Below are positions 5,501 through 12,200 of a DNA stretch of 22,781 bases, piece after piece. The stretch covers positions 1 to 22,781 of the IMG/VR virus record IMGVR_UViG_3300032173_001509, one strand, 5' to 3'. Both the position numbers and the translations under genes were made by a program. Under the pieces are notes generated by a model, which saw only the letters and a program-made list of their open reading frames with translations, was not told where the DNA came from and did no database searches. Within the stretch, counting starts at the first letter, position 1, and each line of letters starts with the position of its first letter. Source of the DNA: a virus.

Positions 5501-7102
5501 TTAGAAAACCCTCGCAATCTTGTACCTGCCAAGGTGGCTAGTCTTGCTACGCAAAGCATAGATGTAGTCAGCTAGAAGCGGAACTTCATGCCCTAACTCT
5601 ATGCTTAACTCTAATTCCTCTTTCTTTGCATCTAAGAAATAGTCAACGCTCAGAATGCGGTAATCCGCATCGACATTCTCGTTCGGCAATACCACGTGAA
5701 TCTTGTCGCCAGCGAGCAGCGGCGTGGTACCATAATCAATTACAGTACTCTTCACTGTCAGGTATTCCGCCGCATTCTTTAGATAGTTAAGCAAAGCCTT
5801 CGCTCGAAATGAACATTCATTATCGCTGTAGAGTTCTTCATCCGTGTCAACGATTTCACGCAAACCATAAGAGGATTGGCTGCCAGAATCCTCTTGCACC
5901 GCACTATACCTTCGCCCACCAAAATACAAGCCGTCAACCCAGAAGCTGTCTGACCCCGTACCATTAAACCAGCAGTCAACACGGAATTTTTGGATGTTTG
6001 TCCAATCAAAGCCGCTGTCAATGGTTTCCCACGATTCAGCGTTATCACTGCCGACTTTCAGTTGCTTATTATTCCATTTACTGTTGCCAAAAGTGACCGT
6101 CTGATAAACCTGACGGCCTGAAGTATCAAGCAAATAGACTGTGACGTTGCCATTAAAGGTCGATCCTAAATATAGCCAAAAACTCAAAACAGGATACAGG
6201 TTTGCATTGACTTCTTTTCCCGAGTTGAGCGTGAAAATGGCTCCGCCATAATAAGCAGATGCATCCGTTTCCTTTATGCTGCCTGAACCCCGAATCTTAA
6301 ACCCAGTGTCCAGGCTAACCGTACCGCCTACACTGCTCCAAGCGCCATCCGTCGGCGTCAAACTCTCAGTCCACGCATCCTTATCAAGCGGCACACTCTT
6401 GTCTGCGGCGCCATAAACCGTAATCTTGTTCCGAACAGCAGTAATGCTCTTGCGATACTCACTAGTCTCAATCAATTCGCTTAAGCTAACAGAACTACTT
6501 TTACTCAAACGTTGGAAAAACTCGAATTTGCCATCAGGAGCCACACGAAAATCGTAGCCAATAACACCACTTTTATCGCATGCAGCAGCAATATCTTTTA
6601 AGATGTCAAAGACCGGCGTGTTCTCGTACTCAAGCAGGGTGAAGGTTGTGTCCGTGTCTTCAACAAGCTCCGTTCCGCCTCGATTATGACTAATGCCTGC
6701 GTAACTATCCATCAGGTCCTTGACTATGGCTTCGCCTTTTTGACTAGAATATGTCTTCGTAACAACCTTGCGAAAAAGCTTCTCACCCCAACAACGACCG
6801 CCAACCCGCAAATAGTGCTCCGCATGTGTACCCTCAAACTTCAAACTTTCAACGCGGCAAGTAATAATCTGCGGCGGCGTAACGCCTTCCCGACCAATAT
6901 CAATGTGTCCGTCAGCGCCCAGCGTGATCGCGTTAGCCTCGCCTGGTGAGTATTGCTGATCTGGCTTCCAGTTTCTCAGAAGCAACTCCCAACTGCTGAC
7001 CTCTTTTGTAGCGCCCAAATGCACTTTAGCCTCGATAATGTCGCTTTCTGCAACTGTTATAGAACCTAAAATAGCAGCCATACGCGGCAAAGCAACGCTC
7101 AC
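5501..7102 (-). CDS. Tail hub/baseplate protein (gp27-like) with inserted carbohydrate-binding-type beta-sandwich
   Basis: A 533-residue virion protein. Residues 1-230 and 410-520 match the general pattern of tail hub proteins: ITCRVESLKFEG, RVGGRCWGEKLF, a helical FDILKDIAAACDKSG and a late PLLAGDKIHVVLPNENVDADYRILSVDY. Such hubs cap the tail tube. Between about 245 and 400 lies a separate domain: WTESLTPTDGAWSS, repeated strands, and the ending FRVDCWFNGTGSDSFWVDG, typical of galactose-binding or CBM-like jelly rolls. The flanking hub sequence continues normally after it, so this is a domain insertion. GTG 7102 overlaps the tape measure stop (GTGA). It may bind host surface sugars. Confidence 0.8.
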   Translation of the reverse strand: MSVALPRMAAILGSITVAESDIIEAKVHLGATKEVSSWELLLRNWKPDQQYSPGEANAITLGADGHIDIGREGVTPPQIITCRVESLKFEGTHAEHYLRVGGRCWGEKLFRKVVTKTYSSQKGEAIVKDLMDSYAGISHNRGGTELVEDTDTTFTLLEYENTPVFDILKDIAAACDKSGVIGYDFRVAPDGKFEFFQRLSKSSSVSLSELIETSEYRKSITAVRNKITVYGAADKSVPLDKDAWTESLTPTDGAWSSVGGTVSLDTGFKIRGSGSIKETDASAYYGGAIFTLNSGKEVNANLYPVLSFWLYLGSTFNGNVTVYLLDTSGRQVYQTVTFGNSKWNNKQLKVGSDNAESWETIDSGFDWTNIQKFRVDCWFNGTGSDSFWVDGLYFGGRRYSAVQEDSGSQSSYGLREIVDTDEELYSDNECSFRAKALLNYLKNAAEYLTVKSTVIDYGTTPLLAGDKIHVVLPNENVDADYRILSVDYFLDAKKEELELSIELGHEVPLLADYIYALRSKTSHLGRYKIARVF

Positions 7103-7650
7103 GGCGTGTCCTCAACTCCCTGGCGGTAGAGATCCGATTCTCCAGCACGCTGAACACTACGAGTTTTAGAAGACGTCTCCGAAGCCGCCTCATTGAAATC
7201 TTGAACACTAGACGTGGCAGCGTTCATGCTATTTGCAAAACTCCACATGGCAGCAGCAGCAGCGATAACAACGGCGATTCCGACGCCGGTTAGAACCAAA
7301 AAGGCAGAATAGCTTATGTTTAAAGCGTTTTGCGCAGCTGTCGCAATCCAACATGCAGCGGCGTAAACTTTCTGAGCTACAGCTACGCCGATGCTTGTGT
7401 TCATAAACATGCCCATAACCGTGACAACCAACATAGCCGAATTGAATACCTTAGCCTGCTCATCATTCAACAAACCAAATTCATGCGCAATATGCCCGAT
7501 AGCAGTTCCAGTTGCACCCAAGCCAGCAATAGCCAACCCCACATTCTTGATTTTCATGCTTAAGGCTTCAGCATCAGTCTGAATCCTAGAAAACTCAGCA
7601 CTAGCTCGATTCACGGCGCGAATCGTAACGGCAATCTCACGGAAACTCAC
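7099..7650 (-). CDS. Very short tape-measure-like tail protein
   Basis: A 183-residue protein in the place of the tape measure, between the chaperone region and the hub. The opening REIAVTIRAVNRASAEFSR (4-22) with the helical KIKNVGLAIAGLG that follows is how many tape measure proteins begin. Residues about 73-93 and 112-137 are hydrophobic and could cross a membrane, as tape measures often can. The usual length is 600-2000 residues. At the accepted 1.5 angstroms per residue this one would specify a tail under 30 nm, so either the tail is very short or the gene is reduced. GTG 7650 overlaps the gene upstream and the stop overlaps the hub start, both as GTGA. Confidence 0.6.
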   Translation of the reverse strand: MSFREIAVTIRAVNRASAEFSRIQTDAEALSMKIKNVGLAIAGLGATGTAIGHIAHEFGLLNDEQAKVFNSAMLVVTVMGMFMNTSIGVAVAQKVYAAACWIATAAQNALNISYSAFLVLTGVGIAVVIAAAAAMWSFANSMNAATSSVQDFNEAASETSSKTRSVQRAGESDLYRQGVEDTP

Positions 7651-8015
7651 AATCCAGCCTCCGATTTGGCCTGCTCAATGGCGCCAATAATGTTCATTTC
7701 TAGACTTGGCAAATACTCTTGGATGGCCGGATAAAGATACGGTTGCGCTCGCATTCGCCTAGTCCCCAATTCCACATAAGCAGCATAAGTAGCTTCAGCT
7801 CCGATCTCAGCAACCCAATCCTTAATCGTGGCATAGATTGAACTTCTAAGATAGCCTGTTCTCACTGGCGCATTCCGCATTGCTGCAGCCTTAACATCTG
7901 ATGCCCAACTATGCAAATATCGATAAACTTCGCGTTGCATGTCACTGTCAAACTTCTGCATAGCAACCTGGAATTCTTCAACACCTTCCACATCACAGGT
8001 TATTTCAACAGCCAC
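7647..8015 (-). CDS. HK97 gp10-like tail/neck protein
   Basis: A 122-residue protein carrying the HK97-gp10 family signature: APVRTGYLRSSI (49-60), a strand VAEIGAEATYAAYVELGT (68-85), then RAQPYLYPAI (89-98). Members form head-tail connection or tail-completion parts. It normally sits before the tail tube gene; here it follows the tail chaperone and precedes the tape measure. The start is GTG 8015. It overlaps by 11 bases the stop of the frameshifted chaperone at 8005-8007, whereas the unshifted chaperone would end 66 bases short of it. Confidence 0.85.
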   Translation of the reverse strand: MAVEITCDVEGVEEFQVAMQKFDSDMQREVYRYLHSWASDVKAAAMRNAPVRTGYLRSSIYATIKDWVAEIGAEATYAAYVELGTRRMRAQPYLYPAIQEYLPSLEMNIIGAIEQAKSEAGL

Positions 8016-8540
8016 GTCTTTTCGCCTCTTTCTCCGCTTTTTCCTTCTCCTCGAGAGTCATTTGGTCTAGGACATTGAGGATTACTGTAAATTGTTGGAT
8101 GCTTTTGGCAGGCTGTTTTGCGAGTTGTGTTGGAGTCCACCCGAAGGCTTGACAAAGCCGAAACTCTGAAAGAGCTGGATGCGGCTTTCCTCGTCTAACT
8201 GCTCTAGTAAAAAACGGAGATCCTCGTGACTCATGCCATTCAGTTTATTCGCAACTTTTGAGAATAATTCGCCGAGTTCCACTGGAACCCCGACATCCTC
8301 GCCCAAAAGCTTCTCAAGTGAAATAGGCTTATCCTGTGGCTGCTCCTTCAATGATGCCCAGATGGTTTCTGCTTGAATGGCTATGAAGTCGCTATTTTCA
8401 ACCTCCCCAGTTGCCTTGCTGTATTTTGTGTGCTTCTGAATGATGCGATTCCGCTTAGCCCAAGTCATTTCTTGGAAAACATAGCGCCCCTTGTACTCTT
8501 CCCCGAATCTATCATCAATCTCTAAAGATTCTGTTTTCAT
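8005..8540 (-). CDS. Tail assembly chaperone, -1 frameshift fusion (gpG-T type)
   Basis: Predicted 178-residue product. Ribosomes read 111 codons from ATG 8540 to the T TTT TTA heptamer (8214-8208), slip back one base, and continue 67 codons in the -1 frame to TGA at 8007-8005. The extension reads as ordinary protein: SEFRLCQAFGWTPTQL, then a helix SIQQFTVILNVLDQM and a charged tail. A C-terminal ...FGWTP... block fits the T extension of phage lambda-type chaperones. The -1 frame has a TAA about 9 codons before the heptamer and no ATG before its codon 50, so it should only be made by frameshifting. Such pairs guide tail-tube assembly on the tape measure. The slip is inferred from sequence alone. 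Confidence 0.8.
8082..8540 (-). CDS. Tail assembly chaperone, unshifted product (gpG type)
   Basis: The 152-residue zero-frame product: MKTESLEIDDRFGEEYKGRY, a helix-rich middle (61-110), and a tail rich in Ser, Asn and Gln after the slip site (GGLQHNSQNSLP) that looks like out-of-frame filler. I choose ATG 8540, preceded by GAGAGTG, over a further-upstream in-frame start at 8588, because 8545-8715 is occupied by a separate small gene. Position right after the tail tube gene is where the tail chaperone is expected. In phages the short form is made in excess over the fusion. Confidence 0.8.
   Translation of the reverse strand: MKTESLEIDDRFGEEYKGRYVFQEMTWAKRNRIIQKHTKYSKATGEVENSDFIAIQAETIWASLKEQPQDKPISLEKLLGEDVGVPVELGELFSKVANKLNGMSHEDLRFLLEQLDEESRIQLFQSFGFVKPSGGLQHNSQNSLPKASNNLQ
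8154..8188 (-). promoter_or_regulatory. Possible stem-loop downstream of the frameshift site
   Basis: AAAGCCG (8188-8182) and CGGCTTT (8160-8154) are a perfect 7-base inverted repeat, enclosing a smaller hairpin CTCT-TTC-AGAG. It begins 19 bases after the slippery heptamer, further than the usual 5-9 bases, so a role in stimulating the shift is uncertain. Confidence 0.35.
8208..8214 (-). promoter_or_regulatory. T TTT TTA slippery heptamer for -1 frameshifting
   Basis: On the minus strand the zero-frame codons CGT TTT TTA form the canonical X XXY YYZ heptamer T TTT TTA. A ribosome-binding-site-like GAGGA lies at 8225-8221, six bases upstream, as in bacterial dnaX where such a site stimulates slippage. 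The -1 frame then stays open for 67 codons. Confidence 0.78.
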
Positions 8541-8727: not shown

Positions 8728-9588
8728 CTACGTAATGGAAACAGGTCCTTTTGCAATAAACGCGGCTTTCAGCGAGATCAAGTCTTCCATCTTGGCTGGC
8801 AACGAAACATTATCCCATTTGCAGCCAGTGAAAACTGCCTTATTAGAGCCCCCGAGACCAAACTCCAAAGAAAATTCAGTATCAGCAAGGATCTCGTCAG
8901 CCTCAGTTTTAGTCTCGAATTCAAAGGTCAATTCCCCACTAAGGTCTCGATGGCGGAATGGCAGATACTTCAGAAGATGGCCATTAGTCGAGCGGATGAC
9001 AGGCACTCTTTTAAGGTTATTTTCAATGTCAAATTTCCAATCGGTGACGCGGTCAAGGGTCGTAGTATCCTTTTTGACGTAGCTCTCGTGGAAGGCAACA
9101 GCTCCGGTGTAGTCACTGTAAGTCGCCCCCGTGATCTTCGCAGTTCCAATCGCGACATCTTGACCCATGAACTCCGCAATGGCCCTCACGACATCTTCGA
9201 TACTGCAACTCACGCTTACCTTGTGGAATTTCATGCCGGTGAAGAGTAACGAGATGATGTCCGTCGCTGATGCAAAGACGCCCTTATAGTACAATACTTG
9301 CATGCTGAGGCTCTTATTCAAATCCATCTTGGCCCATTGAAGCAGGTTAATCGGCGCTGCAGAAGGCAATGGATAGCCAACTTTTAGAGCGACTTGTCTC
9401 AGACCCTTTTTTATGACTTGCAGATCGTAGCTTCCGGCTCCTCTCAACCTCAGATTGCTCGGGTCGATGCTAGGATCTATTTGGTCAGCTGGCACACTAT
9501 ACATCGTTGGGTTTGTCGGTGTTGTGCCATAGACACTTTCGTCAACGTAGTAGACGCGTTCTTGATCTGAACCGTATGTTTCAACCAT
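8728..9588 (-). CDS. Major tail tube protein
   Basis: A 286-residue, beta-rich protein that fits a tail tube subunit: an N-terminal arm with YYVDESVYGTTPTNP (14-28), a strand QVALKVGYPLPSAAP (65-79), a central helix (EDVVRAIAEFMG), and paired strands such as TDWKFDIENNLKRVPVI and LSGELTFEFET. Many copies stack into the tube through which DNA leaves. ATG 9588 follows AGGAGCG at nine bases and lies 3 bases after the terminator gene. The next genes are the tail chaperone and tape measure, which is the expected order. Confidence 0.8.
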   Translation of the reverse strand: MVETYGSDQERVYYVDESVYGTTPTNPTMYSVPADQIDPSIDPSNLRLRGAGSYDLQVIKKGLRQVALKVGYPLPSAAPINLLQWAKMDLNKSLSMQVLYYKGVFASATDIISLLFTGMKFHKVSVSCSIEDVVRAIAEFMGQDVAIGTAKITGATYSDYTGAVAFHESYVKKDTTTLDRVTDWKFDIENNLKRVPVIRSTNGHLLKYLPFRHRDLSGELTFEFETKTEADEILADTEFSLEFGLGGSNKAVFTGCKWDNVSLPAKMEDLISLKAAFIAKGPVSIT

Positions 9589-9591
9589 TTT

Positions 9592-10581
9592 TTAAAACGC
9601 TCCTGACAATGATTCGAAAAGCCAACCTTTGAGCAGAAACTCAGCTCTGAAAAGGTATGGCTTAACGTCCGTGACGTCTATGTTCCTGTAGCTAATGACG
9701 TCACAGAAGGTGATTCCATAAACTTGAATCGTGCATTGGACAAAATCGCAGTAGAGGACCGCAGGCGTAGAGCCATTGCTGGGATTCGTGGTTTTAGCCA
9801 GAAGCCAGACATAACCATCTGAGTCGATATAGTCGGTCCAGTTTGAAGAGATCGTAATGGTTAAGGTCTCGTCTCCGCCTCCTGTTCCGCTCTGGGCTTG
9901 CTGCCATGCAGAAGCAACGTGATTCCAGATCTTGATTGTAGCGCCGTTACCTCCAGGAGCGGTTCCATATCCCTCAAAACTAAGCACGATCTTCTTGACA
10001 CATTGCTCTCGAGCCCCTATCTTGAACCTGAAAAGCATTAGGGCATACTCATTATTGACATTGTGGTTTTTTGAAAAGCGGACGTCGTCGCTCGACCAGA
10101 TGTTTTGATACTGAAGATTTGTTAATTCGGTCCAGGATGCGTTTGAGGGAACGAGTTCTGTCGCTGCACCAGCAGAGAAGGCCTTATGTGGATCTCCACT
10201 TGGATAACCGAGTCCATAGAAATTGTAAACTGTCTGATATGGCAGGTTGCGGTTCTCGCGGATAATAGCGTTGATCTGGGCAGTTACCTTATCCCGCATG
10301 ACCTTGCCTGCGTCAGCTCCAGGAGCGGTCTTGTCGACCGTGTAGATGTTACATCTGAAAACCATGTAGCGACGTCTCAGACGACCAGCAAGCTCAAGCT
10401 TCTGATCCTGGCTGCTGTCGAGCCCCATTGTTATCTGAGCATCATATTCCTTCAGCAACTCCCGATCGTAAGCCTCTTTAGTTGCCAAGAGACTAGCAAG
10501 TGAACCATTGTCCTTGGTCACCCGTATCCTCGTAGTAATCAGCCGCAGAAGAGTTATCACAGGATCCTCGAGCTCGCTCAA
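9592..10581 (-). CDS. Tail terminator/neck protein with inserted jelly-roll domain
   Basis: A 329-residue protein in two parts. Residues 1-135 and 292-329 look like a small neck or tail-terminator protein (LEDPVITLLRLITTRI; later FCDVISYRNIDVTDVKPYLFRAEFLL). Between about 137 and 291 lies a beta-sandwich of the carbohydrate-binding type: NEYALMLFRFKIG, the strand ATIKIWNH (215-221), LTITISSNWTDYIDSDGYVWLLAKTT and a closing VLYCDFVQCTIQVYG. Placement between the predicted stopper and tail tube genes supports a neck role. It starts at TTG 10581, overlapping the preceding stop as TTGA. The terminator label is inferred from gene order. Confidence 0.65.
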   Translation of the reverse strand: MSELEDPVITLLRLITTRIRVTKDNGSLASLLATKEAYDRELLKEYDAQITMGLDSSQDQKLELAGRLRRRYMVFRCNIYTVDKTAPGADAGKVMRDKVTAQINAIIRENRNLPYQTVYNFYGLGYPSGDPHKAFSAGAATELVPSNASWTELTNLQYQNIWSSDDVRFSKNHNVNNEYALMLFRFKIGAREQCVKKIVLSFEGYGTAPGGNGATIKIWNHVASAWQQAQSGTGGGDETLTITISSNWTDYIDSDGYVWLLAKTTNPSNGSTPAVLYCDFVQCTIQVYGITFCDVISYRNIDVTDVKPYLFRAEFLLKGWLFESLSGAF

Positions 10582-12200
10582 GTCGCTAAAAGCCTCCTAG
10601 TTATTGCTTTGAAATAGATGGTCTGATTCTCATAGGTGAAAGGCTGAACGCTCTGGATCTCGTAGTCTTCGCCCTTTCGTCTCAACTTGTCATGATGACG
10701 CACCGGCACAAACGTATAGAAGGCAAGATAGTCGTTCAGAAGATAACCAGCCTCAAGAAGGACTTCTTCAGCCCTAACAGGCGAAACAATTGCTAAGACG
10801 TCTAGAGGATCGCCATAGCTCACAGTTTCGACAGCTTGGCGGATCGGATAGAGTAGGACCGCTTCGCCTTTGCTGTTAAGAATCTGAGTGAACCTCGTCA
10901 AAGGCTCTTCATAATTAAGAAACATGCGGGCTAGCCACGTGACGTTAGCCATCGCCTTTTGCGGAGTGATCGGACTGTAATCAGTGAAAACTGGACCCCA
11001 ATAAAGAAACTCATCAGAATATTTGTTCACGATATCGTAGGCAAGTTTGAAGCTTGGCGGATCCCGCTCCTTACGGATTTTCCACAAGATTCCAGTGGTG
11101 ATCGCATCGTAATAGGCGCATGCTGGAAAACGAGTTATTACGTCAATGTAGCCTGGCCAACAGATTTCAGGCCAATAAGCAGGATACTGTCCAGAGGCTC
11201 TAATCGACTGAATGAAATTGTAGAGGCGTTGGCAAGTGGTGCTCCAGGCTTCGTAAACATACAAGCCCAGAAGAGCAAAAGAAATAGGATCGTCATAAAC
11301 TTCAGTGTCGCTGAGACCGACACGATACCAAGCCCCAGATCCTGAAGGCGGAGGTTGATAGTATAAGTAGAGCTGCTCGAAACCATCACGCAAGAAACCA
11401 GCAAGATCCGCCATCATCGCCGTGTACCGTGCCGCGTTTGCAGTGTCATAAGTATCATTGAGCATTTTCAAACCGACTAGACAATACAAGTTTTCAACCG
11501 ACATCACCGTATCCCATGCTTGCGAAAGAGTAACCTTATTCGCAAAGCCGCCGTAATAACGATCATGAATACCTAAGATCGCGGGTTCATGCTGCATCGT
11601 ATACAGGTAAGTGTACCCCGCGAGGATCGCTGCGTTAAGATAATCCACGTCTGATGTCAATGCATAGGCTTTAAGCAATGCAGGGATACATCGTCCAGCA
11701 TCAATGCTCCAGCATTCTGAGCCCCCATTAGCACTGAAAAACCCGCCATAAGCATACTTGGCAGGATCCAGACATTGCTGCGTTAGAAGCCAATCAGCTA
11801 ACTCAACAATTTTGGCAAGAATCTCAGCTTGCCTAAAACTGAATTGAGTAGCCGAATAAGCTTCATAAAGAAATTCAATAGCGAAAGCAGCAGGAAAGGC
11901 GCCTTTGCCAAAACCCTTGTCGCCATGATCAACCGTTCCGCCCTTCGCCACATAATACGTATACGCCAGATTATTTTTCATGGTAACAACATTGCCAGCA
12001 ACTGAATCGACTTCGTTCCATTCGCTGTGAGCTGAGTCTTTGATTTCACAAGGCATGCCAGCGCTGAACTTGGTGCCATCCGTAACGGTGACGTTCTTCT
12101 GGCCAGCAGGCGGATCAGCAGCCATCGCTGTCGTGATAGCGTAGAACCAGGGTGCATAATGCATGACATACTCGTAATAGGCTTCAGGAACGGTTCCCAT
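10578..12200 (-). CDS. Head-tail stopper with large N-terminal six-hairpin glycosidase-like domain
   Basis: A 540-residue protein. The last ~105 residues (433-540) match a small head-closure or stopper protein: RFTQILNSKGEAVLLYPI, a helix, and YEIQSVQPFTYENQTIYFKAITR. The first ~430 have the repeat pattern of an (alpha/alpha)6 toroid: paired helices with aromatic-rich loops, such as GGSECWSIDAGRCIPALLKAYA (159-180), AGYTYLYTMQ, HDRYYGGFAN, AWDTVMSVENLYCLVG and DDPISFALLGLYVYEAW. Residues 33-92 form a beta insertion (VTVTDGTKFSAGMPCEIKD). This fold is shared by many glycoside hydrolases, lyases and epimerases; I cannot identify catalytic residues. A virion enzyme or sugar-binding collar is the likely role. 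ATG 12200 is 3 bases after the connector stop. Confidence 0.7.
   Translation of the reverse strand: MGTVPEAYYEYVMHYAPWFYAITTAMAADPPAGQKNVTVTDGTKFSAGMPCEIKDSAHSEWNEVDSVAGNVVTMKNNLAYTYYVAKGGTVDHGDKGFGKGAFPAAFAIEFLYEAYSATQFSFRQAEILAKIVELADWLLTQQCLDPAKYAYGGFFSANGGSECWSIDAGRCIPALLKAYALTSDVDYLNAAILAGYTYLYTMQHEPAILGIHDRYYGGFANKVTLSQAWDTVMSVENLYCLVGLKMLNDTYDTANAARYTAMMADLAGFLRDGFEQLYLYYQPPPSGSGAWYRVGLSDTEVYDDPISFALLGLYVYEAWSTTCQRLYNFIQSIRASGQYPAYWPEICWPGYIDVITRFPACAYYDAITTGILWKIRKERDPPSFKLAYDIVNKYSDEFLYWGPVFTDYSPITPQKAMANVTWLARMFLNYEEPLTRFTQILNSKGEAVLLYPIRQAVETVSYGDPLDVLAIVSPVRAEEVLLEAGYLLNDYLAFYTFVPVRHHDKLRRKGEDYEIQSVQPFTYENQTIYFKAITRRLLAT

Follow-up and report, generated by a model that had tools for sequence, protein, structure and literature searches.

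Does the short gene that follows the tail tube gene in an uncultivated virus encode one protein or two? We addressed this question for a 22,781-nucleotide virus record without a host label (IMGVR_UViG_3300032173_001509, positions 1 to 22,781), which is referred to as the window, meaning the whole stretch of DNA that was analysed. The comparison of homologous loci indicates that the gene is very probably the tail assembly chaperone locus (G/G-T) of a Bathyarchaeia tailed virus or provirus, with its longer product made by programmed -1 frameshifting. The features at issue are:

8540-8082, minus strand: gene G, probable tail assembly chaperone; ATG at 8540, zero-frame stop at 8084-8082, 152 aa
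8214-8208, minus strand: slippery heptamer T TTT TTA (U_UUU_UUA), codons 109-111 of G
8005..8210, minus strand: predicted T extension in the -1 frame, 67 aa after the slip, then TGA at 8007-8005
8225-8221, minus strand: Shine-Dalgarno (SD)-like GAGGA six bases 5' of the heptamer, possible weak stimulator

A preliminary description of the window had reported an in-frame T TTT TTA at 8214-8208 and a -1 frame open for 67 codons that ended in the start of the next gene, and both were found as described. The first T of the heptamer occupies codon position 3, the phase required for tandem slippage. The -1 frame has no stop between 8244 and the TGA at 8007-8005, with 67 codons after the slip that include SEFRLCQAFGWTPTQL. 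The T extension shares sequence with the zero-frame tail of G and with the initial bases of the next gene (GTG at 8015), and its stop lies 8-10 nt within that gene. In codon shuffles of G, open runs in the -1 frame had a mean of 37 and a maximum of 97 codons, compared with 54 observed within G. Because such openness is unexceptional in one sequence, a comparison of homologues was required.

Conservation of the slippery heptamer

Relatives of G were collected from a scan of viral contigs (80), from a further scan with an alignment, and from a scan of 84,980 genomes (24 loci). After the removal of duplicates, the final set comprised 127 distinct loci with the full region, falling into 107 clusters below 90% nucleotide identity. 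The alignment and genome scans used peptide patterns from a region well before the slip site, and its conservation was therefore not built into those searches. Loss of the heptamer among homologues, or stops in their -1 frame, had been set beforehand as the outcome that would count against a frameshift, and neither was found; all 127 loci carried an in-phase slippery heptamer at the corresponding site and an open -1 frame. The heptamers were UUUUUUA (104), UUUUUUG (16), AAAAAAC (6), and AAAAAAU (1), against a background of 13 in-phase X_XXY_YYZ heptamers per 10,700 codons in the 300 bases upstream of the site.

Codon usage at the heptamer was compared among 99 clusters of the U type. The Arg at codon 109 was CGU in 81/81, although CGU accounts for only 8% of Arg codons overall. 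It was also found that the heptamer Phe was UUU in 99/99 (UUU usage 32%) and that Leu was UUA or UUG in all 99, leaving the CGT TTT TTR codons without the usual synonymous variation. For the amino acids encoded there, UUUUUU[AG] would arise by chance with a probability of approximately 0.011 per sequence; 1.06 heptamers were expected and 99 were observed. This comparative evidence places the site far beyond chance.

In the seven loci of the A type, A_AAA_AAC or A_AAA_AAU replaces the T6 run and the encoded residues change from Phe-Leu to Lys-Asn with the phase kept; in three of the seven the site lies one codon upstream. Most of these loci grouped together in a protein tree, with L097 and L105 nearby but unresolved. 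Since the residues change while an in-phase slippery heptamer is kept, selection acts on the nucleotide site and not on the residues. No A_AAA_AAG was found at the slip site in the 127 loci.

Two readings of the run that involve no ribosomal slippage were weighed against these patterns. Archaeal transcription can terminate at U-tracts, and the conserved T6 could therefore be a terminator or attenuator within the gene, with the -1 openness a coincidence. We regard this as scarcely credible, because seven loci carry A6 in place of T6 and the product of the -1 frame is a recognisable conserved domain under selection. Alternatively, the archaeal RNA polymerase could slip at T6 and produce mixed mRNAs. 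Polymerase slippage is favoured at homopolymeric runs and its product would be nearly identical to that of frameshifting. However, longer runs would then be favoured, and the run length at the site was 6 in 106/107 clusters and 7 in one, never longer. Phase is also irrelevant to a polymerase, yet the run at the site was always in the tandem-slippage phase, whereas T6/A6 runs elsewhere occurred in all phases. Transcriptional slippage is thus very unlikely to account for the locus.

Coding signals and protein identity

The preliminary description had also proposed that the -1 frame should be conserved among homologues. Beyond its openness, we found that the most variable codon position switched at the heptamer: it was the third position of the zero frame before the site and that of the -1 frame after it. 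The ratio of nonsynonymous to synonymous substitution rates (dN/dS) was 0.076 for G upstream of the slip. In the -1 frame it was 0.177 in the overlap and 0.081 beyond the G stop, where the other two frames gave 1.3-2.5. With a dN/dS of 0.08-0.18 and the switch in periodicity, the -1 frame after the heptamer is under protein-level selection.

It was considered whether T might instead be a separate protein whose translation starts in the -1 frame, either independently or by coupling. An ATG, GTG, or TTG precedes the conserved T motif in that frame in 17/127 loci; all A-type loci are among these, with an ATG (RAM-RRGK). The remaining 110/127 loci, the window among them, have no such start, yet they keep the heptamer and their T is equally under purifying selection. 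In these loci T would need the shift, and separate initiation is accordingly extremely unlikely. As the T domain lacks a start codon in most loci, gene annotation would miss it.

The zero frame after the slip follows a different pattern. Residues 1-110 of G are folded and conserved, and after residue 111 the protein becomes a low-complexity S/N/Q/K tail of 40-46 codons in most members, with a zero-frame dN/dS of 0.94 in the overlap. We observed only 5 stops in this tail compared with 91.5 expected under synonymous randomisation, a contrast whose strength is inflated by shared ancestry; the +1 frame, taken as a control, gave 150 stops compared with 162 expected. The S/N/Q-rich tail (8082-8207 in the window, minus strand) thus avoids stops though its residues look unconstrained. 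An earlier view of the tail as Ser/Asn/Gln filler holds for its low complexity, but in most members the strong avoidance of stops shows that it is not free filler. In the A-type loci L097, L099, L101, and L105 the zero frame stops 0-4 codons after the slip, and the tail is therefore dispensable there.

The T extension matched phrog_9001, "tail assembly chaperone", in the window (E 1.6e-11) and in 37/37 homologue extensions scanned, and it matched the T of Bacillus Andromedavirus in hhalign (E 3e-19). It was noted separately that two loci on the same contig (L046 and L135) carry an insertion of about 27 residues in the T domain compared with all other homologues. By sequence, G gave no significant Pfam or PHROGs match and no significant hhalign match to the Andromedavirus G, and PDB sequence searches of G and T returned only weak matches to unrelated proteins. 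An AlphaFold2 (AF2) model of G reached a predicted local distance difference test (pLDDT) score of 80.5, with residues 131-152 below 50. In Foldseek this model matched the HCTV-1 tail assembly chaperone (E 5e-3, probability 1.00) and the Bacillus phage Gemini chaperone. In VIA-align it matched YqbN (3klu) with Z 8.9 and a root-mean-square deviation of 2.9 over 86 residues, the next row having Z 4.4. The modelled G thus appears to have the fold of known tail chaperones, a likeness found by fold comparison only. Together with tail tube and tail completion neighbours, these matches bear out the original naming of the gene as a tail assembly chaperone.

Neighbouring genes and host

The genes around G, all on the minus strand, were:

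8728..9588, minus strand: tail tube protein, upstream of G; Pfam PF18906 Phage_tube_2, E 7.6e-19
7650..8015, minus strand: HK97-gp10-like or tail completion protein, the gene after G; Pfam PF04883, E 1e-7; phrog_5, E 1.2e-20
7102-7650, minus strand: open reading frame (ORF) of 183 aa in the tape-measure position, following the tail completion gene

The last of these ranges from about 150 to 305 aa among relatives and contains hydrophobic segments. It matched no family, and an attempt to assign it as a tape measure gave no confirmation; it is a candidate for an exceptionally short one. Two further proteins of the window were noted, both encoded on the minus strand. A 504-aa protein at 1114-2628, adjoining the terminase, has an ABC-type ATPase domain and, more weakly, matches GNAT acetyltransferase, and a 540-aa protein at 10578-12200, between the head and tail genes, has no Pfam match. 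A terminase search against named phages gave matches that were all below 60% identity, with the best rows at about 25%.

The host was examined through the 24 genome loci, which comprised 22 Bathyarchaeota records, one "Crenarchaeota" metagenome-assembled genome (MAG), and one Bipolaricaulis MAG. Bathyarchaeia are uncultivated archaea of sediments and hot springs. By its relatedness to these host-labelled loci, assignment of the window virus to Bathyarchaeia is supported, in agreement with a first impression of it as probably archaeal. Several host loci lie in contigs from hundreds of kilobases to 2.15 Mb (including 2.15 and 1.72 Mb), and the genome of Bathyarchaeota archaeon A05DMB-2 (L085) carries five G copies on five contigs, suggesting several related proviruses; integrated copies therefore appear to be common. 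The Bipolaricaulis MAG, which is bacterial, contributed a long-branch homologue (L103, JAQTNX010000020.1) that reflects either a mis-binned contig or a different host.

Mechanism, meaning, and known systems

A conserved in-phase site, an open and selected -1 frame, a T domain of phrog_9001, and the fold of G together argue for programmed -1 frameshifting that makes G and G-T. Under this mechanism, most ribosomes would stay in the zero frame as far as the G stop codon and yield G as the major product. A minority would move one base backwards on U_UUU_UUA, where tRNA-Phe and tRNA-Leu would pair again in the -1 frame, and these ribosomes would append the 67-residue T domain to yield G-T as the minor product. 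If the lambda model carries over, coating of the tape-measure protein would fall to G, and the T domain of G-T would bring in the tail tube subunit and set off polymerisation of the tube.

Three observations weigh against this interpretation. The downstream structure was not unusually stable, the folding energies of six windows giving a mean z of about 0 relative to protein-preserving codon randomisations in a test with pseudoknots and alifold consensus outside its scope. The ORF in the tape-measure position has only 183 aa and no family match, so that the lambda-like coating role is an analogy. Finally, U_UUU_UUA is a weaker slip site than A_AAA_AAG in E. coli (PMC5009743).

Stimulation from upstream was also assessed. 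The preliminary description had pointed to a GGA-rich site six bases upstream of the heptamer; GAGGA is indeed present at 8225-8221, although across homologues an SD-like motif upstream of the heptamer is only moderately enriched (35/56 compared with 21 expected). The upstream anti-SD duplex had a mean of -5.45 compared with -3.76 kcal/mol under synonymous randomisation. Since GAGGA is enriched but not universal, its stimulation of the slip is only a suggestion. A further idea is that this is a structure-free U-rich (HIV-type) site whose efficiency is set by archaeal tRNA-Phe with a wyosine-type modification at position 37, so that the ratio of G to G-T would report or respond to host tRNA modification. 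The Taw1/TYW1 family was encoded in 6/6 Bathyarchaeia host genomes checked, and we consider this idea unlikely.

No report of frameshifting in Bathyarchaeia viruses was found, Bathyarchaeia virus and provirus papers included, in a literature of incomplete coverage, and no mention of tail chaperone frameshifting was found in a 2021 survey of archaeal Caudoviricetes. The mechanism is already well known in phages, and among archaeal viruses it has been noted chiefly for a few from salt lakes; the Bathyarchaeia case appears to be new and is strongly supported by the comparison of loci. Its HIV-type U-rich site, the replacement by A_AAA_AAY in some members, and the zero-frame tail kept open in U-type members are notable. 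With these loci, a well-conserved mechanism of phage assembly would reach the viruses of a major class of uncultivated archaea. They also offer what is apparently the widest comparative case for archaeal ribosomes shifting to the -1 frame, with more than 100 loci and site turnover set against the few halovirus predictions in the literature consulted. Natural exchange between U_UUU_UUR and A_AAA_AAY sites, with A_AAA_AAG absent, provides a ready data set on the codons that slip in archaea.

Among known systems, lambda slips at G_GGA_AAG. The conserved tail assembly chaperone frameshift of double-stranded DNA (dsDNA) tailed phages was reportedly described by Xu, Hendrix and Duda in 2004. Like lambda gpG/gpGT, the Bathyarchaeia loci have a short gene after the tail tube gene in which a -1 shift at X_XXY_YYZ adds a T domain. 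Unlike lambda, they use U_UUU_UUR or A_AAA_AAY, most members have the 40-46 codon zero-frame tail after the slip, and a tail completion gene and a short ORF follow, with no recognisable long tape measure. The -1 frameshift is conserved in the tail assembly chaperones of dsDNA tailed phages, lambda gpG/gpGT included (PMC5009743). Among haloviruses it has been predicted for HVTV-1, HCTV-1, -2, -5, and Hardycor1, with a +1 shift predicted for HSTV-2 (PMC5009743, PMC8211752, PMC7911831). This literature matches the preliminary description, which had called the frameshift well known in tailed phages with few archaeal examples.

The haloarchaeal virus chaperones (HCTV-1, -2, -5, HVTV-1, and Hardycor1) share an archaeal host and a -1 heptamer with the Bathyarchaeia loci; the tail assembly chaperone of HCTV-1 is the one matched by the G model, and the HCTV-1 record holds a joined chaperone coding sequence. 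They differ in infecting halophilic archaea, and none of the five was recovered in a tblastn search of G-T against the phage collection. The gag-pol site of human immunodeficiency virus 1 (HIV-1) has the identical U_UUU_UUA heptamer (PMC5009743), but the virus and gene are unrelated and no 3' stimulatory structure was detected at the G locus. The Bacillus Andromedavirus phages (Andromeda, Riggi, Finn, and Bolokhovo) have a homologous T in the -1 frame that overlaps the end of G. They differ in their bacterial host, in a slip site of A_AAA_AAA or A_AAA_AAG within the last 19 nt of G, and in a G that is not alignable by sequence. In the three Andromedavirus records among our loci (L167, L168, and L169) T is annotated as a separate gene. 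The T frame becomes open within G, at an in-phase A_AAA_AAA or A_AAA_AAG, and a frameshifted G-T product is therefore probably missing from these records.
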